Source of the DNA: Actinobaculum suis
GTDB taxonomy: Bacteria > Actinomycetota > Actinomycetes > Actinomycetales > Actinomycetaceae
DNA: 64,000 nucleotides
Assembly (NCBI RefSeq): GCF_900102025.1
Contig: NZ_FNAU01000001.1
Location: 1-64,000 of the forward strand
Direction of reading: 5' to 3'
The notes under the pieces are model-generated. The model did not search any database. It had not been told where the DNA came from and saw only the letters and a program-made list of their open reading frames with translations. The position numbers and the translations under genes were made by a program. Below are positions 27,954 through 45,290 of the stretch, one piece after another. Position 1 is the first letter of the stretch. Every line of letters begins with the position of its first letter.

Positions 27954-28081
27954 ACCTCAAGGGTAACTGCAATACCTGTTATGAGCCCACAGTATCCACA
28001 CGCGCGTATCCACAAACGCGCGGGCGCCGTGAAATACCGCTCACCTCTCGAAAAATTGCCCGCCTCGCTTGAGATTGCAAT

Positions 28082-28100
28082 GAGAATCATTACCATTATC
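28082..28100. promoter_or_regulatory. Fur/Zur-type operator before the anchored metal ABC locus
   Basis: The complement of 28082-28100 reads GATAATGGTAATGATTCTC, matching 16 of 19 positions of the classical Fur consensus GATAATGATAATCATTATC. An AATGA-GAA-TCATT palindrome overlaps it. It lies 148 bp upstream of the first gene of the locus, in a 294-bp gap otherwise empty of genes. A Fur-family regulator is encoded at 44841. The metal (Zn, Fe or Mn) is inferred. Confidence 0.7.
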
Positions 28101-28247: not shown

Positions 28248-30422
28248 ATGCGTTCTACATTCACGCGACGCACGCGGGGCACTATCGCGGCACTTGCTGC
28301 TCTCGCGATTTCTGGGCTGGGGCTGAGTTCACCAGCATTCGCGGCCGGAACTAGCTCGCAACCGGCCACTCACAATGCCATCCTCCTCAATAAGGGAGTG
28401 ACGGCACCGAATGTATGTGCCAATCCCGTCCACAACACTTTGACTCTCGAAACTGGACACACCGATATTTTCAACCCGGTAGTCAACGGCGATGGTATTT
28501 CCTTGGTTCTCAAGGAAGATGCTTCCAAGCCCGGAACCGGAGTTTTCCGCAACCCGAACTACGTGATTTTTGGGGTGCGCGAGGGGGCTTTCCAAAAGCA
28601 AACCGCGCAATTCTCCGAAATTGGTACGAGCGGTTATCTGCTCCCGGCCAATCAGGACCAGAACCTGGTGTGGCCGGGCTGGGATTCCCTCATGTTGGCT
28701 AACGACGCGAAATACGAAAACCCAGTTTCCGTGCGTTACGTTTTCGATACCGTTACCGGCCCGGGCCGGGCTTTCGTCTTCGGCTCCGGTGCTTTCGGGG
28801 AACTGAACCCGCGGCTAAATACGGGCGGTACGCAGATTACGGACGGTTTCTATGTGGAACAGGGCTTTTTGGCTCATGAACACGTGAACTGGTTGTTTGA
28901 AAAGCCGGGTGACTACGTGTTCACGGTCCATGCCGAAGTACATGCGCAAGACGGCAACGTTTACCATTCCGAGCAGGCCCGTTATCGCTGGGCAGTAGGC
29001 GATGCGGCAATCGCGCAGGCGAAGGAAACCGCTGCTGCCGAATCTGCGGTTCGTTGCGCCGGGGAAAACGGTGCTTTGGACCCTGCCGCTACGGCGAAGG
29101 AAGAAGAAGGTTTGGCCGCCGCGCAGGTGGTCAAGGCAGAAACCGCGGGCACCACCGAAACTGGCCAAGACGGTAGCAACCAGTCTGATGCCGGTAAGAA
29201 CGACGCCGCTAACTCCGCCGCACCGGGTACGGGCACAGATACGAACAATTCGCAAAACAATGCCGGGCAGCAAACTGGTTCCCCAGATGCCACTTCCGGC
29301 AAGGATAACGCCGGCAATAACGCCCCGGCAGGCAATCAAGGCGGGGCTCAGAGCACTGCCCCTGATGCCGACCAGGGCGGAGCTCAGGGTGATGTCACTC
29401 TGTCTCCGGTAGCCACCGGGGCAGATAACGGTTCTCCGGAGGCACCGGCTGCGGGCGGTACTGCTGCGGGAGGCGGGCAAGAAATCTGCTTGCCCACGGA
29501 AGTGAAGAAGGAAGTTTCGAAGGAAGAGGCCGAAAAGGTTAAGGCCGGCGGCAGCCAGGGAGCTACCACCGCTGATTCTGGCACCACCAAGTTGGGTGAT
29601 TCGCACACGATTCCGGCCAATACGCACGTTCATCCGAACTGGATCTTCACTAAGCCGGGCACTTACAAGGTGCATTTCACGGCTGCCGCTACTTTGAAGA
29701 GTGGCGAAAAGGTTTCCACCCCGGTCACCTTGACTTTCAATGTGGGCGGTTCTGGAAATGCGAATGATGGCCACTTCGATTTGGGTGCAACGGTGAAGGA
29801 CGGCAAGCTGGTACCGCTCGTCAAGGACGATCGCCGGCAGCCAGCCCAGTGGGTTGATCCGGCCAGTTTGACGTTCGGCTTGGGTGACAAGGCGAAGACG
29901 AAGGCCCCAGCCGGCCTCGAATTCATCGCTCCGGCCGGCGCGGAAATCTACACGATTTCCGCCACCCAGGTAGCCGGCGTGCCTTGGCTGGGCATGAACA
30001 CTATGAACTCCGATTTCCTCAGCCAAACCACTGGCGAACTGCACTGGACCTTGCAGGGTGTGGACGGGCCGGGCGCGCTCGCCGTCTTCACCTCCGGCAA
30101 CCTGGGCCAAACCGTTGGCGAACACTGGTTCGGTGGGCTCGCCGGTAAGGGCGATGCTCAGGCTCCGGCCGGCACCACCGGCCAAGCCCCGCAAAATGCC
30201 AAGGTCAGCGAGGAAAACGGCAAGTACTACGTGACCACGATCGAAGGTCGTACGCCCAGTGGGGAACCATGCGAACTAGATCCGGCGAAGCGTCCGGGTG
30301 GCAAGCTCTCGCACACTGGCGCAGACACCACCTCGGCTACTGTTCTGGCAGGCATGTTCCTGTTTGCCGGTGCTTGCGCGGTGATTTCTGGTAATCGCTC
30401 CTACCGCCGCCGCCAGGCCTAA
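28248..30422 (+). CDS. Surface-anchored metal ABC-associated protein (choice-of-anchor M / TIGR03769-type repeats)
   Basis: 724 residues. An N-terminal signal peptide ends near AFAAG (residue 34). A first domain (about 55-260) ends in LAHEHVNWLFEKPGDYVF, the His-x-His..W.F..PG hallmark. A Gly/Asn/Asp/Gln-rich linker (about 290-405) follows, then a second hallmark NTHVHPNWIFTKPGTYKVHF (about 460), and a further beta-rich domain. The C-terminus has LSHTG, a hydrophobic helix and RRRQA, a sortase-type sorting signal with a non-canonical first position. First gene of the five-gene locus, behind a Fur/Zur box. Likely an extracytoplasmic metal-capture or metal-relay protein; substrate not shown. 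Confidence 0.88.
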   Translation: MRSTFTRRTRGTIAALAALAISGLGLSSPAFAAGTSSQPATHNAILLNKGVTAPNVCANPVHNTLTLETGHTDIFNPVVNGDGISLVLKEDASKPGTGVFRNPNYVIFGVREGAFQKQTAQFSEIGTSGYLLPANQDQNLVWPGWDSLMLANDAKYENPVSVRYVFDTVTGPGRAFVFGSGAFGELNPRLNTGGTQITDGFYVEQGFLAHEHVNWLFEKPGDYVFTVHAEVHAQDGNVYHSEQARYRWAVGDAAIAQAKETAAAESAVRCAGENGALDPAATAKEEEGLAAAQVVKAETAGTTETGQDGSNQSDAGKNDAANSAAPGTGTDTNNSQNNAGQQTGSPDATSGKDNAGNNAPAGNQGGAQSTAPDADQGGAQGDVTLSPVATGADNGSPEAPAAGGTAAGGGQEICLPTEVKKEVSKEEAEKVKAGGSQGATTADSGTTKLGDSHTIPANTHVHPNWIFTKPGTYKVHFTAAATLKSGEKVSTPVTLTFNVGGSGNANDGHFDLGATVKDGKLVPLVKDDRRQPAQWVDPASLTFGLGDKAKTKAPAGLEFIAPAGAEIYTISATQVAGVPWLGMNTMNSDFLSQTTGELHWTLQGVDGPGALAVFTSGNLGQTVGEHWFGGLAGKGDAQAPAGTTGQAPQNAKVSEENGKYYVTTIEGRTPSGEPCELDPAKRPGGKLSHTGADTTSATVLAGMFLFAGACAVISGNRSYRRRQA

Positions 30423-30444
30423 TCACAAAATATGAACTGGACAC

Positions 30445-30493
30445 CTTTCGGGCGGCCCCATCCGCGTTTTGCGCGGGCACGGCCGCCCGAAAG
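30445..30493. terminator. Long nested hairpin after the first surface-protein gene
   Basis: Perfect 13-bp arms CTTTCGGGCGGCC (30445-30457) and GGCCGCCCGAAAG (30481-30493), with an inner CCGCG/CGCGG stem. No T tract follows. It may terminate or attenuate readthrough, or protect the upstream mRNA end within the operon. The rest of the 257-bp gap holds loose CACAGGCTCAC-like repeats. Confidence 0.55.
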
Positions 30494-30679
30494 GCCGTCA
30501 AGCCTTCGTGTACACAGGCCACAGATTCGCTCGCCACAGGCTCACACGCTACAGACTCACGTGTCACCGCATTGCTTGCCATCGGTTCACGCACCACAGG
30601 TGCACGCCCAGTTTTACCTACCCGTAGCTTTGCCCGTACTCCCGCGAAGTAAAAACGCAGAGAAGGAATACATCGCAAT

Positions 30680-32422
30680 ATGAGATTCCGCAGCATTCAC
30701 CGCTCGCGCCCACCGCGTACCGCGTGCGCGAACCGGCCCAGGCGGCGTCGGTTACCGGCACTGCTGGGCAGGTATGCAACCAGTTTGGCGCTTCTCGGAA
30801 CGCTAACGCTCGGTGGTTGTACAGCCCCGGAAGCGCGCAGCGACGATACCGTAACGGTGGCTGCCTCTACCCCGATCATCGCTGACCTCGTTAGCAATGT
30901 TGCGGGCACGCGCGCACACACCACTTCGATCGTGCCCTTCGGCGCCGACCCGCATACTTATGAGCCTTCTTTGGCGGCGCTGAAGGATATTGCGCGGGCA
31001 GACGTCGTTTTCTCGAATGGGTTGCTCCTAGAAAGCCAGGCGCTCACGAATACGATTGACGCCAATCTGCCGAAAGGGACGCGAAACATTACGCTTGGCG
31101 ATGCTGCGGTTGCGTACGGGGCACGGCATATCGCCCTGGTCGAAGATGCTTCGCTCGCTACCGTGTGGCTCGGTTTCCGGGTGGAAGACGACGCCGCCGC
31201 GGCCGCCAGCCACGGCGGTACGGATCCGCAAGCAGATACTGCGGATGCGGCAGATGGCGCGGATGCGGCAGATGCTGCGGATACTGCGGAGGCTGCGGCC
31301 CGCAAACAAAAGTCGAGCGTCACGCTCACGGCAAGTGCGGAAGGGCCCGGCCAGCTTTCTGCCTTCACCACCGGTACTTTCGGCCAGCCTACGGCCTGGA
31401 TTGTTTCGGACCGAAAAGCGAGCGAAAATGAAATCGAATTGCCGCTAAACGCACACACCCACATGTCTTGGGGGTTTTCCGCCCCCGGGATTTACACCAT
31501 GCATTTACAAGCCCACCTCAATGAGCCCGGGCAAGAGCCACGCCCACTCGGAGAAACCGATGTGACATTCGCGGTGGGTGTGGACCCGGCGAAAACCGGC
31601 CGCGAGCACCAAATAGATTCCGGGCACGTCGATATTACGGCCTACACTTCCGGCGCGCTCGATTTCCGCGGCGAAGTAGGCACAAAACAAACCACGCGCT
31701 GGGGCACGGATGAATCCGTAGTGGTAGTCCCCCATTCGGCGGCAACCACGGTACCGGGGGACCCCAGCTGGAACTTTTTGGGCCATCCGGGTAGCGAGGC
31801 CTGGGTTTTGGCGCAGGCCGTAGTTGGCAAACACGTGCATGGAGATATCGATCCGCACATGTGGCTCGATATTTCTAATGCGATCGCCTACGTGGAAGTA
31901 ATCTGCACGGAACTAAGCCGTGTTGACCCGGCAGGTGCACCAGAATATGAAGCCAATGCAGCGGCCTATATTGAGCAACTTAGCGCGCTTGATGAATGGT
32001 CTGCCGGGGTGATCAGTTCCATTCCGAAAGCCAACCGGAAGCTGGTAACCACCCATGATGGTTTCGGATACTTGGCAGATGCCTACCATTTGCAGGTGGC
32101 CGGTTTTGTGGCACCTAACCCGACGGCGGAACCTTCCGCCCAGGCCCTTGCCAATCTCACCCGCACCTTGGTTGATCTGCATGTACCAGCCGTATTTGCC
32201 GAACCAGGCTCGCGCGCCCACCGCGGCGAACTTGAAGCGGCCGCCCAAGCCGCAAACGCGCAAGTATGCGAACTGGTATCCGATACTCTCACCGAGCAGG
32301 CACACAGCTACGTGGCCCTAGTGGAAACCAATACCCAAACCCTGAAATCTTGCTTGGATCCGGGGGCACTGCCAGCCTGGCCGCCAGATTATGCAACACC
32401 GCAGCCTGGTTCCACCGCCTAA
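30680..32422 (+). CDS. Metal ABC transporter substrate-binding lipoprotein split by an anchored-repeat domain
   Basis: 580 residues, about twice a normal ZnuA. Lipobox LGGC places the lipidated Cys at 47. The cluster A-I binding fold begins VTVAASTPIIADLVSNVAG and supplies ligand His in GADPHTYEP (residue 92). Residues about 155-390 are an insert containing an Ala/Asp repeat (about 185-207) and the hallmark NAHTHMSWGFSAPGIYTMHL. The fold resumes with GDIDPHMWLD (second His), TTHDGFGYLAD (third His) and VFAEPGS (acidic ligand). This is the TIGR03772-type architecture, so the protein binds metal at the membrane and feeds the following ATPase and permease. Confidence 0.9.
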   Translation: MRFRSIHRSRPPRTACANRPRRRRLPALLGRYATSLALLGTLTLGGCTAPEARSDDTVTVAASTPIIADLVSNVAGTRAHTTSIVPFGADPHTYEPSLAALKDIARADVVFSNGLLLESQALTNTIDANLPKGTRNITLGDAAVAYGARHIALVEDASLATVWLGFRVEDDAAAAASHGGTDPQADTADAADGADAADAADTAEAAARKQKSSVTLTASAEGPGQLSAFTTGTFGQPTAWIVSDRKASENEIELPLNAHTHMSWGFSAPGIYTMHLQAHLNEPGQEPRPLGETDVTFAVGVDPAKTGREHQIDSGHVDITAYTSGALDFRGEVGTKQTTRWGTDESVVVVPHSAATTVPGDPSWNFLGHPGSEAWVLAQAVVGKHVHGDIDPHMWLDISNAIAYVEVICTELSRVDPAGAPEYEANAAAYIEQLSALDEWSAGVISSIPKANRKLVTTHDGFGYLADAYHLQVAGFVAPNPTAEPSAQALANLTRTLVDLHVPAVFAEPGSRAHRGELEAAAQAANAQVCELVSDTLTEQAHSYVALVETNTQTLKSCLDPGALPAWPPDYATPQPGSTA

Positions 32423-32631
32423 GTTGCAGTGCCACCGCCGAAGCACCGGTCGCGCAGCCAAGTATCAGCTGCGCTGCCTACTAAATTTGGGTTGCGCTGC
32501 CTAAGTAGCGGTTTTAGCACCGCCCACGTTTTGGTTTAGCCGCGGTAGTTTTCACCGGGCAAACACCCACAACCAGCGCATACGAAAAGAAACACAACCG
32601 GTACACACAAAAAGGAAAGAACAACAATCTC

Positions 32632-33798
32632 ATGAAAAGATCTCGATTCACTCGCGGCATCCGCACCATCCGCGCCGGCGGCGCTACCCTGTGCGCTGCC
32701 CTGTGCGCTGCACTGTTTGCCCTCACCGCCTCCCCGGTAGCTCTTGCCGATGAGGAACAATCCACGAATGCCGATCCGGCACTAACCCAAGTATTGGAAG
32801 CCGATGAAGAGGTTGCGCCCCTGGGCACACCCGCCGAACTCGACGAACACCATGCCGATCTCGGCCCGCGCCTCATCGACGGCAAGTGGACGCTCATGGT
32901 ACGGGACGATTCCCAAGCCACGCCCGTATGGCGGCACCTGGAAGACGTAGTTTTCCGCGTGCACGACGCCGGCAAAATGACCGTGCCAGACACCAGCGAT
33001 TACGCTTTCGTCAACGCCACCGGCGAGGCCTATATCATTCCCCAACAAGAAGTTCCCGGCGTTTTGTGGCTGGGCTGGAGCACCCAAGATCCCGAAGTAG
33101 TAAATACCGTCAACGGGCAAGTAAAACTCATCTACGGCGGCATGGAAGGGCCCGGCGGTTTCAATCTCTTCGTGCAAGCCGGTAACTTCGCCGGCCCCAC
33201 CGAACTGTGGAACTCGGCCCAAGAAATCTCCCAGCCCATGAACGTAGACCTCAATACCCACACCCATGCCAACTGGGTTTTCGCCCAGCCCGGCGTGCAT
33301 CTAATGCGCGTCACCGCTGCGGCCACCCTCACTGATGGCACCGCGGTAGAAGATACCCAAATCCTGCGCTTCGCCGTAGGCGACCAAGTCACCACGGAAG
33401 AAACCCGCCAAGCTACCTGGCCCGGCACCGCTGCCAACCTGCCCAGCGCGGAAGAAGCAAAGGCCGGCGCAACATCTGGCAATAGCGCCGCGGTTTCCAC
33501 CCCCGCCACCAATTCCGGCGGAAACTCCACGGCCGGAATTATTGCGGTATGCGCCGTCGTTATCGCACTCGTGGCGCTCGCGGTACTGATCGTGTTTGCC
33601 CGCCGCCGCAAAGCCGCGCAACTCGCGGCCCTTGCCGGCCAAGCCAAAGAAAAGGCGCGCGCTGCCGGCTCCGAAGCTGCAGCCGTCACAACCGGTGCTA
33701 GCTCCCGGGCATCCGGCTCGCCGGCAACAGATTCCCCGGCAACAGATTCCCCGGCAAACGGCTCGCCAGCCCCGCACTCCCCCAGCACGGAAGGGTAA
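32632..33798 (+). CDS. Membrane-anchored protein with one anchored-repeat (TIGR03769-type) domain
   Basis: 388 residues. Signal peptide to about residue 40 (SPVALADEE). One extracellular domain (about 60-265) holds NTHTHANWVFAQPGVHLMRV near residue 205, the same His-x-His..W.F..PG hallmark as its neighbours. A transmembrane helix IIAVCAVVIALVALAVLIVF (about 304-323) precedes RRR and an Ala/Ser/Pro-rich cytoplasmic tail with ATDSP repeats. It has no sorting motif, so it is membrane-anchored instead of wall-linked. Nine bp upstream of the ATPase gene. Confidence 0.87.
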   Translation: MKRSRFTRGIRTIRAGGATLCAALCAALFALTASPVALADEEQSTNADPALTQVLEADEEVAPLGTPAELDEHHADLGPRLIDGKWTLMVRDDSQATPVWRHLEDVVFRVHDAGKMTVPDTSDYAFVNATGEAYIIPQQEVPGVLWLGWSTQDPEVVNTVNGQVKLIYGGMEGPGGFNLFVQAGNFAGPTELWNSAQEISQPMNVDLNTHTHANWVFAQPGVHLMRVTAAATLTDGTAVEDTQILRFAVGDQVTTEETRQATWPGTAANLPSAEEAKAGATSGNSAAVSTPATNSGGNSTAGIIAVCAVVIALVALAVLIVFARRRKAAQLAALAGQAKEKARAAGSEAAAVTTGASSRASGSPATDSPATDSPANGSPAPHSPSTEG

Positions 33799-33806
33799 TA
33801 ACTCGC

Positions 33807-34541
33807 ATGCAACTGAAGGTGAAAGATCTGCACGTTTCGCTGGGCGGCCGGGAAGTGCTTACCGGCATCAACCTGGAACTGAGCGAGGGGCAACTCACCG
33901 GGCTGATCGGCCCAAACGGGGCAGGAAAAACTACGCTGATGCGTGCGATCCTCGGCCTGGTGAAAGCTAGTTCAGGAAGCGTGGAACTGGACGGAAAACG
34001 GCCGCAGCCGGGCGCGATTGGCTATGTGCCGCAACTTTCGCTTACCGAATGGACCTATCCGATTAGTGTGCAAGAACTAGTGGCTACCTCGTTTAGCGGG
34101 CAAAAACGCCGGTGGCGGCGCCGGCGCGCCGAAGAATGGCGGAAAGTCTATGCGGCCTTGGAAACCGTGGAGCTGCTCGACTATCGCGAACGGCCTATCG
34201 CGGAGCTTTCCGGCGGGCAAAAACAGCGCGTCGTGGTAGCCCGGGCGCTTGCCACCGATCCGGCCGTGCTCCTTCTGGATGAACCATTCACCGGACTGGA
34301 CTATCCGAACCAAGATTCTTTGGCCACTTTATTTGGTTCCCTGGTGGGCACCGGGCGCGCAATCCTCATGTCTTCACATGATTTGCCCCAAGCCATGGAC
34401 GTATGTACGGACTTGGTAATGCTCAACCGGACCGTGCGCGCACACGGCAAACCGGAAGAATTGCGCGATCCGCAACCCTGGCAAGAAACCTTCCAGGTTG
34501 GTAACGATTCTTCGCTTTTGCGTGTTTTGGGGGTCATCTAG
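33807..34541 (+). CDS. Metal ABC transporter ATP-binding protein (anchored-repeat type)
   Basis: 244 residues, ZnuC-like. Walker A GLIGPNGAGKTTLM, Q-loop VPQLS, signature LSGGQKQRVVVARALA, Walker B AVLLLDEPFTGLD and H-switch SSHD are all intact. It energises uptake of the metal delivered by the upstream binding protein. The stop TAG shares its G with the GTG start of the permease gene (TAGTG), indicating coupling. Confidence 0.94.
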   Translation: MQLKVKDLHVSLGGREVLTGINLELSEGQLTGLIGPNGAGKTTLMRAILGLVKASSGSVELDGKRPQPGAIGYVPQLSLTEWTYPISVQELVATSFSGQKRRWRRRRAEEWRKVYAALETVELLDYRERPIAELSGGQKQRVVVARALATDPAVLLLDEPFTGLDYPNQDSLATLFGSLVGTGRAILMSSHDLPQAMDVCTDLVMLNRTVRAHGKPEELRDPQPWQETFQVGNDSSLLRVLGVI

Positions 34542-35401
34542 TGAATATCATCGAGTTCTTCAACGATCTGAGTAATCCGGTACTTGCCTTTTTGCCGCGC
34601 GCGCTAATCGTGGCCATGCTTTCTTCTGTGGTGTGCGGAATTGTGGGAACGCACGTGGTTTTGCGCGGCATGTCCTTTGTGGGAGACGCCCTTTCACACG
34701 CGATCTTCCCCGGTATTGCTATTGCGTTCGCGCTTCAGGGGTCGATTATGGCGGGCGGGATGATTGCCGGTGGAATCGTGGCCCTGTTGATCGCGGCCGC
34801 CTCCCAAAACCGCAAGCTTCGGGAAGATTCCCTCATCGGAATTTTCATGGCTGGAAGCTTCGCCTTGGGCGTGATTATTATTTCTCGCATCCCCGGGTAC
34901 ACCGGTTCTCTGGAATCTTTCCTGTTCGGTTCGCTCACCGGCGTTTCCGATTCGCAATTGGTAACGGTTGCGATTACCGGCGCACTAATTTTGCTCTGCC
35001 TTGCCTTCCTACATCCGCAACTGGTGGCCTCCACAGTAGACCGTGACTACGCGCAGACCTTAGGCATCCGGCAAGGGCCTTTGGACGCCGTGCTCTACTT
35101 GTTAGTAGCCGCAACCGTGGTGATTTCGGTGCAGTCGATCGGCAATATTTTGGTGCTCGCCTTACTCGTAACCCCGGCCGCAAGCGCGCGTTTACTTACG
35201 AACCGGCTCGTGCCAATGATGGTTATTTCTCCCCTGCTCGGCTGTTTTGCGGCTTTTATGGGGGTGTGGATTTCGTGGTCCTGGGATTGGCCGGCCGGTG
35301 CTTCTATCGTCATGGTGCTCATGGTGGTTTTCGCGGCCGCCTGGGTGGTTTCTTCCGTCCGTACGGCTCGGCGCCGCCGCGGGCAGGCCGTACCGGCATA
35401 G
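34541..35401 (+). CDS. Metal ABC transporter permease (anchored-repeat type)
   Basis: 286 residues with GTG start. ABC-3 family inner-membrane protein with about eight helices: FLPRALIVAMLSSVVCGIVG, HVVLRGMSFVGDALSHAIFPG (the conserved coupling/gating segment), GNILVLALLVTPAASARLL and others. Last gene of the five-gene metal locus. Only one permease gene is present, so the transporter would use a homodimer. Confidence 0.94.
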   Translation: MNIIEFFNDLSNPVLAFLPRALIVAMLSSVVCGIVGTHVVLRGMSFVGDALSHAIFPGIAIAFALQGSIMAGGMIAGGIVALLIAAASQNRKLREDSLIGIFMAGSFALGVIIISRIPGYTGSLESFLFGSLTGVSDSQLVTVAITGALILLCLAFLHPQLVASTVDRDYAQTLGIRQGPLDAVLYLLVAATVVISVQSIGNILVLALLVTPAASARLLTNRLVPMMVISPLLGCFAAFMGVWISWSWDWPAGASIVMVLMVVFAAAWVVSSVRTARRRRGQAVPA

Positions 35402-42139: not shown

Positions 42140-43537
42140 TTAGGCCCCCACGAGCTTTCCGGCCAGGTAGCTTTCTACCTCGGCAATCGGGATGCGGACC
42201 TGTTCCATGGTGTCGCGGTCTCGGACCGTAGCTGCGTTATCTTCCAACGAATCGAAATCGATGGTGATGCAGAACGGGGTGCCGATTTCGTCTTGCCGGC
42301 GATAGCGGCGGCCCACCGCGCCCGAATCGTCGAAGTCCACGTTCCAGTATTTACGCAAGCTGTCGGCCAGTTCGCGGGCCAATGGCGTGAGCTTTTCGTT
42401 TCGGGAAAGCGGGAGTACGGCTGCCTTGACCGGGGCGAGCCGCGGGTCGAGGCGCAGTACCGTACGCTTATCTACCCCGCCCTTCGTGTTTGGCGCTTCA
42501 TCTTCGGTGTAGGCCGAAACGAGGAAGGCCATGAGCGAGCGGGTGAGCCCGGCGGAAGGTTCGATCACGTACGGGATGTAACGCTTGCCGGTCTTCTGGT
42601 CGAAGTAGCTCAAATCCTTACCCGAATGTTCAATATGGGTAGAAAGGTCGAAATCGGTGCGGTTGGCAATGCCTTCGAGTTCTCCCCATTCCCCGCCGGC
42701 AAATCCGAATTTGAACTCGATATCTACCGTGCGTTTTGAATAGTGTGAAAGCTTTTCTTGCGGGTGTTCGTACAGGCGTAGTTCTTCGGCCGGAATGCCC
42801 AGGTCTTGGTACCAGGCGAGGCGGTGGTCAATCCAGTACTGATGCCATTCTTCATCGGTTCCCGGTTCCACAAAGAATTCGAGTTCCATTTGCTCAAATT
42901 CGCGGGTGCGGAAAATAAAGTTACCGGGCGTGATTTCGTTCCGGAAAGATTTTCCGATCTGCCCGATCCCGAAGGGCGGCTTCATGCGGGAAGACTGTTG
43001 CACATTAGAGAAGTTTGTGAAAATTCCCTGCGCGGTTTCCGGGCGCAGATAGTGCAGTGCGGATTCGTCTTGCACCGGCCCCAGATAGGTTTTAAGCATC
43101 ATGTTGAAATCGCGCGGTTCCGTCCATTTTCCGGTTACCCCGCACGCCGGGCACTGTAGTTCTGCCAGTTCGATGCTTTCCGGTTCAGCAATATCGTGCT
43201 TGCTTGCCTGTTCTTCTTGCAGCTGGTCCATGCGGAAGCGGCGGTTACAGTTCAAGCATTCGATAAGCGGGTCGTTAAAGACGCCCACGTGGCCGGAGGC
43301 CACCCAAACTTCCCGGGGAAGGATAATCGCGGAGTCTAGCCCCACCACATCACCCCGGCTTTGCACCATGTATTTCCACCACTGGCGCTTAATATTTTCC
43401 TTTAACTCGGTCCCCAGCGGACCGTAGTCCCACGCGGAGCGTGAGCCCCCGTAGATTTCACCGGATTGGAACACAAAACCTCGCCGTTTTGCGAGGGCAA
43501 TGACGTTATCGAGACGCGTGGGAGCTTTTTTCGCCAC
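42140..43537 (-). CDS. glyS: Glycyl-tRNA synthetase
   Basis: Class II alpha2-type synthetase of 465 residues. The frame is open to 43618, but AAAGGA nine bases before a GTG at 43537 gives the expected start [20 protein letters not shown] (M at initiation). Motif 1 area [12 protein letters not shown], motif 2 [12 protein letters not shown] and [21 protein letters not shown], motif 3 [17 protein letters not shown], anticodon domain near the C-terminus. A CxxC pair (CLNCNRRF) and CPAC form a probable zinc site. Confidence 0.95.
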
Positions 43538-43730
43538 CTTACTATTATCCTTTCCCGCGCATCCGGCTGATGCGCGCGAGGCCATTGTACGGGTTGCGCC
43601 GCCTAAGCAGTATGCCAAACCTCCCGGAGTGCCGAGTTTTTACCGCCACCCGATCCGCGCTTCGTGCCAAATACGCGGGTATCCACCTGCCGCTTTGACA
43701 AGATTAGCGTGAATCGGCACGATAAGTTAC

Positions 43731-44699
43731 GTGAGTACTTTTCTTCGCCGCCTCAGCGCACTTGCAACGGTTTGTATGCTTAGCCTTGCTGGTTGTACGA
43801 CGCCGCCGCCCAGCCCGGCTGCTTCTTCTTCCGGCCCTGCAGCTGACTCAGACACTGTGCAAACCCCCGCTACGCCGAAAATTCGGGTAACTGCCACTAG
43901 TTATCCCATTGCCTGGGTGGCAGAACAGATTGGCGGCGAATATGCCACCGTTAGCATGGCCACCCCGGCCGGCGTCGATCCTTTACTTTATGCTTATACA
44001 CCGGAAGAGCTGGCGCAACTGGGTGAGGCTTCCGATGTGCTGTTCTATGTTGCGGGTTTCCAGCCGGCCCTAGATGAAAATCTGGCACAGGTGAGTACGC
44101 CCGCGGTTGATTTAGCCCCGCACGTGCAGCTCGTCCACCATCGTGCTTTGGCCGGTAACCACGGTGATGAATCCGGAGAAGCAGGCCGCCAGCTCGATCC
44201 GTATTTCTGGCACGATACCGAAAGACTTACCCGCCTGGCCGGCGCCGTGCGCGAGGCTTTGAGCAATATGGATCCGGCGCATGCCACCGAATACGCGCAG
44301 GCACTGGATTCGCTTACCGGGAAGCTCAATGAGCTGGATGCGCATTATGCTGCCGGGCTAGCCCAGTGTGCCACGCGCACCGTCGTCACCTACCGGCCCG
44401 CCTACGCTTATATGACAGACCGTTACCATCTACAGCAAGTAGCAGTGCAGGCGATGGACCCCGCGATCACTCCCACCGCAAAAGATATCCGAAACGTAAA
44501 ACTCGAGATCAACGCCAATCACGTGGGCACAGTTTTTACGGAAGGCGGTAACAGCGAAGCAATAGCGCAACTAGCCGGTGAAACCGGCACCCAAGTGGCA
44601 AGCCTGGATTCTCTTTCCACTCCCCCGGCAGAAGGTGACTATTTGAGCGGCATGGAAGAAAATCTGCAGTCGCTACGCGCCGGACTGGGGTGCCAGTAA
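43731..44699 (+). CDS. Orphan ZnuA-like lipoprotein with altered metal ligands
   Basis: 322 residues, GTG start, lipobox LAGC near residue 22. The cluster A-I fold is clear (KIRVTATSYPIAWVAEQIGG, YTPEELAQLGEASDVLFYVA). Yet the usual ligand positions differ: DPLLYAYTP instead of DPHxYEPxP, LDPYFWHD instead of DPHxWLD, and VTYRPAYAYM instead of THDAFGYL. It may bind another ligand or use other His residues (HHRALAGNHGD loop). No ABC partner adjoins it; Zur lies 141 bp downstream. TTGACA at 43695 and no good ribosome site suggest a near-leaderless mRNA. Confidence 0.8.
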   Translation: MSTFLRRLSALATVCMLSLAGCTTPPPSPAASSSGPAADSDTVQTPATPKIRVTATSYPIAWVAEQIGGEYATVSMATPAGVDPLLYAYTPEELAQLGEASDVLFYVAGFQPALDENLAQVSTPAVDLAPHVQLVHHRALAGNHGDESGEAGRQLDPYFWHDTERLTRLAGAVREALSNMDPAHATEYAQALDSLTGKLNELDAHYAAGLAQCATRTVVTYRPAYAYMTDRYHLQQVAVQAMDPAITPTAKDIRNVKLEINANHVGTVFTEGGNSEAIAQLAGETGTQVASLDSLSTPPAEGDYLSGMEENLQSLRAGLGCQ

Positions 44700-44840
44700 C
44701 GTTCCCGAACGGGGACGGCTAAGCTAAGGGATAGCCGGTTTGGGCTACGTGCAGGCCGCAAATAGCGCCAGTACCCCGTCACCCGTACCGGTTTGTTTAG
44801 GCAGTGCCCGTATTCAAGTTTTTTGCGTTAGGAGATGACC

Positions 44841-45290
44841 ATGACCGCGCCGAGGCAACGTGTTACTGCCCAGCGGCGAGCCATTATCGCTGTTCTGGAA
44901 GGCACGGATCAGTTTATTTCTGCACAAGACCTCCACGATAAGCTCACCGAGGAAGGCACCCGGATCGGGTTGGCAACGGTGTATCGCACCCTGCAATCGC
45001 TAGTGGATGAGGGGAGCCTGGATACCATTATCGAAGAAGGCCAAACCCTGTACCGGGCCTGCGAAACCACCGATCACCACCACCACCTAGTGTGCCGGAT
45101 CTGCGGAAAGACCGTAGAGATCATTCCGCCCAACACCGAAAATTGGTTCACCAGGGTGGCTGCCCAGGCCGGCTTTTCGGATGTGGAACACACTTTGGAA
45201 CTCATTGGGCTGTGCTCCAAGTGTGCGCCCAAAGTCGCGGCCGTGAAACAACAGCGTGCTGAAACAGGCCCGGCGCGCCACGCGGAATAA
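44841..45290 (+). CDS. zur: Fur-family metalloregulator, Zur/FurB-like
   Basis: 149 residues from the ATG at 44841, which has GGAG at proper spacing; the ATG at 44835 abuts it. Winged helix QDLHDKLTEEGTRIGLATVYRTLQSL, then metal site text TTDHHHHLVCRICGKTVEI and structural CxxC pairs CRIC and CSKC. The lineage with HHHH-LVC and CSKC fits zinc regulators of actinobacteria. It follows a metal-binding-type lipoprotein gene and likely binds the box at 28082. Fur or Mur function cannot be excluded by eye. Confidence 0.85.
   Translation: MTAPRQRVTAQRRAIIAVLEGTDQFISAQDLHDKLTEEGTRIGLATVYRTLQSLVDEGSLDTIIEEGQTLYRACETTDHHHHLVCRICGKTVEIIPPNTENWFTRVAAQAGFSDVEHTLELIGLCSKCAPKVAAVKQQRAETGPARHAE

Follow-up and report, generated by a model that had tools for sequence, protein, structure and literature searches.

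In Actinobaculum suis, the gene directly upstream of zur encodes a zinc-binding protein homologue that no longer carries its metal ligands. This gene, here named znuAx, lies at positions 43731-44699 (+) of the window, the 64,000-nucleotide stretch of DNA that was analysed, and encodes 322 amino acids from a GTG start codon. Its product is a ZnuA-family (cluster A-I) lipoprotein in which four metal ligands are replaced (L85, Y158, R222 and S296). Judged from the alignments, znuAx is a decommissioned zinc-binding subunit. It is almost certainly not a functional ZnuA and has probably been put to another use in Actinobaculum. The ZnuA family is known; a search of open-access papers found no description of a member in the state of znuAx.

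Fold and metal ligands of znuAx

The Pfam profile ZnuA (PF01297) matches znuAx with 191 bits, against a cut-off of 29, over profile positions 1-262 of 263, which places the protein in this family. NCBIfam profiles give matches below their cut-offs alone, to AztC, MntC, AdcA and others. One of these profiles, TIGR03772, scores 66.6 bits against an NCBIfam cut-off of 350, so znuAx is not classed as an anchored-repeat substrate-binding protein (SBP). The signal MSTFLRRLSALATVCMLSLAGC contains the lipobox LAGC with Cys22 (judged by reading), as in a lipoprotein, and the Cys22 column is invariant across the 38 rows of a MAFFT alignment, A2. The AlphaFold2 model of znuAx (pLDDT 86, pTM 0.81) is predicted to be a two-lobed cluster A-I binding-protein fold. 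Among the matches listed, AdcA, ZnuA and YcdH are the best in Foldseek, and VIA-align superposes the model on ZnuA 1pq4_A over 251 aligned residues with a Z score of 28.4 and an rmsd of 2.0 Å. The model of a canonical control, from locus L016, gives structure matches of the same kind among those listed. The first-pass annotation had stated that the fold is kept, and the profile score, the model and both structure searches bear this out. The fold, the lipid anchor, C213, C321 and the cleft scaffold are all conserved in znuAx.

The zinc ligands of AdcA are His63, His140, His204 and Glu279, as given in an excerpt of PMC7858048, and those of AdcAII are His65, His141, His205 and Glu280 in the corresponding excerpt of PMC8416893. 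By alignment, the canonical ligand positions of znuAx are changed as H85L, H158Y, H222R and E296S. The replacement of the three His ligands had been read from the sequence in the first-pass annotation, and phmmer alignments to the structures of AdcAII (3cx3) and AdcA (7jj8) likewise show no His at these three places. The fourth ligand is also gone, a change absent from that annotation. Its column holds S296 in the MAFFT alignment and in the phmmer alignment to 3cx3; in the phmmer alignment to 7jj8, a nearby gap would put D293, not S296, at this position. A functional Zn/Mn binding protein is recognized by three His or His-His-Glu together with one Glu or Asp, and znuAx has lost this set. The annotation had also contrasted znuAx with a second ZnuA-like protein of the window, encoded at 30680-32422 (+), and the contrast holds, with DPHTY, DPHMW and TTHDG intact in that protein. 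At its ligand positions, the A. massiliense orthologue carries W, Y, R and T. A sequencing or assembly artefact was rejected, as this separate copy in a second species shows these losses too.

The conservation of these substitutions was checked in a family search of 213 genomes, where 133 had a match at an E value of 1e-25 or better, at 134 places, and 80 had no match. These places comprise the two Actinobaculum copies and 132 other matches; the within-genus comparison is one of two genomes, the window genome and A. massiliense FC3 (G001). Both Actinobaculum species have lost the same four ligands. The three His are kept in neither of the two Actinobaculum sequences versus 131 of the 132 other family matches (125 of 127 aligned rows, plus L020, L053 and L054, plus L200 and L201, plus L194), and no further copy without the three His was found among these 132. 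The remaining match, L181, is a gene cut by a contig end, with His at both of the positions covered. In L194, znuA is split over two reading frames with part of the three-His set in each, and znuC and znuB lie alongside. The fourth ligand is less strict: 13 of the 127 aligned rows lack both Glu and Asp there. Several loci from other genera keep the three His and have Ala as the fourth ligand (L118, L131, L150, L174, L186, L188, L190, L192, L193 and L195).

A contig scan with two short exact peptide patterns, which more diverged copies could escape, gave A. massiliense as the sole match, and one viral scan found no copy. In a quick tree, the Actinobaculum proteins pair up as sisters with an SH-aLRT of 100, nested inside canonical ZnuA. 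The pair has a long stem of 0.80, and its next neighbours are L016-L019 at a support of 75. Among open-access papers, no report of an orphan, ligand-less cluster A-I SBP like znuAx was found.

The znu locus and Zur control

Directly downstream of znuAx is zur (44835-45290, +), a Fur-family zinc uptake regulator named by reading and position. The divergent neighbour on the other side is glyS (42140-43618, -). In other genera, the gene order is znuA-znuC-znuB-zur in all 10 of the non-Actinobaculum loci compared (L044 and L046-L054). Divergent glyS lies upstream of znuA in nine of these 10; in the exception, L044, dnaE takes the upstream place and glyS lies downstream. The two Actinobaculum species have divergent glyS followed by znuAx-zur, and znuC and znuB are gone. 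The place that these two genes occupy in other genera is a 135-bp gap (44700-44834, +) between znuAx and zur. A znuC or znuB relic in the gap was considered and rejected: no protein relic was detected, and shuffles score as high in 62 of 100 cases for the window and 64 of 100 for A. massiliense. The description of znuAx in the first-pass annotation as a gene upstream of zur without transporter partners is therefore accurate, with no ABC gene adjacent. Comparison of these loci shows that znuAx descends, at the same locus, from a znuA-znuC-znuB-zur cluster whose transporter genes were lost.

Of 100 further loci, 94 have a znuC match in the flanking sequence that was fetched. The other six have no clear znuC or znuB in the fetched flank, yet keep the three His (L115, L134, L146, L177, L187 and L196), so a missing neighbour does not alone bring ligand loss. 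Four of these six come from one genus (g30), L177 has one match at an E value of 0.005, and L134 adjoins zur.

Relocated copies of znuC and znuB were not found across the 14 Actinobaculum metal-permease loci or regions tested, where the best identities are 37% for ZnuB and 39% for ZnuC. Within the znu locus, ZnuB and ZnuC share 50-62% identity between genera and 68-76% between two genomes of the Actinotignum-like group (g3). PF00950 identifies six clear ABC-3 permeases in the window genome, which belong to five systems and each lie beside another SBP, and three extra weak matches at 24 bits against a cut-off of 20.1. A. massiliense has four clear permeases in three systems, each next to its own binding protein. 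No cognate ATPase and permease adjoin znuAx, and the clear ABC-3 permeases are all beside another SBP. ZnuA-family matches number six in the window genome and five in A. massiliense, where one protein is counted in two pieces and the matches represent four proteins. A further metal ABC system (L096; G000:C8:1-8947) includes a ZnuA-like protein with a long insert, in an open frame of 472 amino acids. Of the Actinobaculum loci tested, this one has the permease closest to ZnuB (37%). A promoter and terminator consensus scan gave nothing exceeding shuffles.

Zur control is apparent elsewhere in the window. A Zur-box matrix trained on nine Zur-box-like sites upstream of canonical znuA genes identifies a palindrome of 23.1 bits at 28077-28099 (+). 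The next best site in the window scores 13.7 bits, and the maximum over 10 window shuffles is 16.3 bits. The palindrome resembles the actinobacterial Zur motif as presented in an excerpt of PMC2823685. Behind it lies an anchored-repeat zinc ABC gene cluster (28248-35401, +), assumed from its spacing to be an operon. The cluster is composed of a surface protein starting at 28248 (+), the SBP at 30680-32422, a second surface protein from 32632 (+), an ATPase from 33807 (+) and a permease from 34541 (+) that matches PF00950; the surface proteins and the ATPase were named by reading their translations. The SBP, with its intact ligands, matches TIGR03772 with 506.9 bits, and a long insert with a choice-of-anchor M / TIGR03769 repeat splits its ZnuA domain. 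In A. massiliense, the equivalent site (L045:2116) scores 21.1 bits and is likewise upstream of the anchored-repeat cluster. Upstream of znuAx, no Zur box was found; the best site there scores -2.0 bits (5.4 bits in A. massiliense), and znuAx is not counted in the Zur regulon.

The Actinotignum-like group is mixed in this respect. No Zur box is present at znuA in L016-L020 (genomes G051-G055), whereas G056, of the same group, has a 23.2-bit site at znuA (L021:1458) and no match to the anchored-repeat SBP. G052 and G053 have a palindromic site of 16.5 bits before the anchored-repeat SBP (L198:6555 and L199:8526), a score near the shuffle maxima. To the eye, these genomes look like a stepwise hand-over of Zur control. 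The box pattern of G051-G055 versus G056 suggests an order of events in which Zur control moved first and the loss of znuCB and of the ligands followed in Actinobaculum.

Conservation, the His loop and possible roles

Over aligned residues, identity between the two Actinobaculum proteins is 49%, compared to 63, 69 and 74% for three other SBPs of the genus, so znuAx evolves faster than these. A canonical znuA pair, L016/L021, is equally diverged, with 52% identity and a pN of 0.348. Between the znuAx copies, pN is 0.355 versus a pS of 0.78, an estimate that is coarse because dS is saturated, and at the level of sequence these values show that znuAx evolves under purifying selection. Conserved sites were defined as the 73 positions where 26 or all 27 of the canonical rows agree. 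Both species keep 46 of them and have changed 13; a further nine differ solely in the window species and five solely in A. massiliense. In six pairs of canonical rows used as controls, zero to two such sites are changed in both members. Of a sensor, a binder of another ligand and a decoy, the candidate roles put forward in the first-pass annotation, none is singled out: the cleft changes are partly common to the two species, whereas a loop with several His residues is strongly kept. It is very probable that znuAx is kept for a function.

This flexible loop, LVHHRALAGNHGDESGEAGR, is encoded at 44130-44189 (+), codons 134-153, and holds His136, His137 and His144. Conservation in znuAx is highest in the loop HHRALAGNHGDESGEAGR and the motif that follows. 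Over residues 134-162, the Actinobaculum proteins agree at 25 of 29 positions, with 14 synonymous differences. Non-synonymous codons number 4 of 29 here and 123 of 243 in the remainder (p = 1e-4; the stretch was picked post hoc). An equally conserved stretch of 29 residues occurs somewhere in 40 of 5000 shuffles, which makes the significance moderate. The canonical pair L016/L021 has no such excess, at 12 of 26 versus 112 of 243. Nucleotide-level constraint or an overlapping antisense gene was considered as the source of the loop conservation and is not supported, as synonymous sites vary as elsewhere. The His residues common to both Actinobaculum proteins are 136, 137, 144 and 233; His136, His137 and His144 are the only ones shared by both species and the Actinotignum-like relative L016.

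Relatives with a complete ligand set also carry the loop, in the form LVHHRGLADNHGDEATEAGR in L016-L020 (G051-G055). Because these relatives already have it, the loop did not arise as a replacement, and an origin as a replacement metal site was rejected. AlphaFold2 confidence in the loop is low, with a mean pLDDT over residues 141-150 of 55 in znuAx and 49 in the canonical control. The first-pass annotation had allowed that the His residues of the HHRALAGNHGD loop might take the metal positions. This is not supported: the loop is inherited, and the models predict no placement in the pocket. Ligand loss, the kept fold and orphan status are supported, and the earlier reading as a whole is partly supported. 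The loop is old, flexible and constrained at the protein level, though the former site is gone.

A precedent for such a loop is AztC, which, according to an excerpt of PMC6689063, needs both its flexible loop and three conserved His residues to accept zinc from AztD. Such loops can therefore take part in zinc hand-over. The best explanation, with a probability a little short of even, is that znuAx is an ex-ZnuABC subunit kept as a transporter-less accessory lipoprotein that acts through its His loop. In this reading, the ZnuABC importer was dismantled in the Actinobaculum lineage, leaving znuAx as the former zinc-binding subunit. Going by the boxes, Zur-controlled zinc import would have passed to the anchored-repeat ABC cluster. 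Comparison with the relatives shows that the znu locus lost its Zur box, ATPase and permease, and the binding protein its four zinc ligands. On the external side of the membrane, znuAx would serve as an accessory lipoprotein whose working part is H136, H137 and H144 with D146/E147. The loop may supply the Zur-controlled anchored-repeat importer, either by binding zinc loosely or by docking a surface protein that handles zinc. By analogy, a loop-centred zinc relay or docking by znuAx is plausible but tentative. That the His loop, once an accessory for loading the cleft, is now the functional element of a stand-alone extracytoplasmic protein and relays zinc to the unrelated Zur-controlled anchored-repeat importer is rather unlikely. 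Against this explanation, the genus-level argument comes from two genomes and the stand-alone role of the loop is extrapolated from other proteins. The three His in a disordered loop may also bind nothing.

The cleft, in place of the loop, may be the part in use. It could be remodelled for another ligand through a Tyr/Arg pocket (Y158, Y221, R222, Y225 and Y89), with the loop as a lid; candidate ligands are anions, peptides and chelates, either ferric or organic. Tyr158, Arg222, Tyr225, Tyr221 and Tyr89 are found in both species and are absent from the corresponding columns of the 36 other rows of A2. The sites changed in both species cluster by the ligands, with 9 of 13 lying four or fewer residues from a ligand versus 11 of the 60 others (p = 6e-4, for a four-residue window chosen by the analyst). 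Segments 101-112 and 224-239, which presumably line the cleft, are also well kept. However, the two species agree on the new residue at just 5 of the 13, a proportion that does not exceed the 95 of 201 for ordinary variable sites, and ligand positions 1 and 4 differ between them (L/W and S/T). No SBP-less permease for inward transport was found, three weak PF00950 matches aside, and a remodelled cleft with any of these ligands is a doubtful reading. Continued metal binding in the cleft through non-canonical residues, such as E271, D293 or an infolding loop His, is extremely unlikely. E271 is kept in znuAx and is Glu in all 29 orthologues of A2, D293 falls at the fourth position in one phmmer alignment, and AdcAII mutants lacking a single ligand still bound zinc according to an excerpt of PMC8416893. 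In znuAx, however, four ligands are lost and not one, H161 is Gln in A. massiliense, and the model, with its low-confidence loop, predicts no cleft placement.

Two further readings leave the cleft without a ligand. As a surface protein for protein-protein contact, for example an adhesin or a cell-wall scaffold, znuAx would keep its fold and lipid anchor with the cleft chemistry gone, as is seen. Cluster A-I also includes Lmb, a laminin-binding adhesin and one of the top fold matches listed. The strongest conservation, however, is in the loop and the ligand-2 motif and not across the outer face, and with no specific evidence of an adhesin found, a contact role is quite unlikely. Less likely still is that znuAx is a decaying relic of importer loss with a frame open by chance. 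Its faster evolution than the three other SBPs, the canonical positions lost singly in each species (nine and five) and a weak Shine-Dalgarno context (by reading) are consistent with decay. Against decay, the frame is open in two species at saturated synonymous distance with pN well below pS, and the sites kept in both species and the near-identical loop stretch point the same way.

The history of this locus is an apparent step-by-step retirement of a textbook zinc importer, in which Zur control moved elsewhere, the box, permease, ATPase and metal site were lost, and the binding protein was kept. It offers a clear natural example in which to ask what roles such binding proteins have beyond metal binding and whether the His loop is functional in its own right. 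Annotations of 'ZnuA' beside zur need a ligand check.

Comparison with known systems

ZnuA and AdcA, the binding proteins of ZnuABC importers (PF01297), share with znuAx the fold, the lipoprotein signal, a His loop before the second ligand, the zur neighbour and common descent. Unlike these proteins, znuAx has four ligands replaced, no adjacent ATPase or permease, and no Zur box seen. The laminin-binding SBPs of the Lmb type have in common with znuAx the fold and the character of a surface lipoprotein. Unlike znuAx, Lmb-type SBPs retain the ligands for metal and participate in its transport, in agreement with the title of 3hjt. The second SBPs AdcAII and IutE are like znuAx in being SBPs besides the main one of an importer, and a protein of this sort might in principle work with an importer nearby. 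According to excerpts of PMC8416893 and PMC12445094, AdcAII and IutE both bind zinc, whereas znuAx has none of the four ligands. The extracytoplasmic chaperone AztD is a beta-propeller according to an excerpt of PMC6689063, a fold unrelated to that of znuAx, and no kinship is claimed. What AztD and znuAx would have in common is the proposed role of holding zinc outside and passing it to an SBP.
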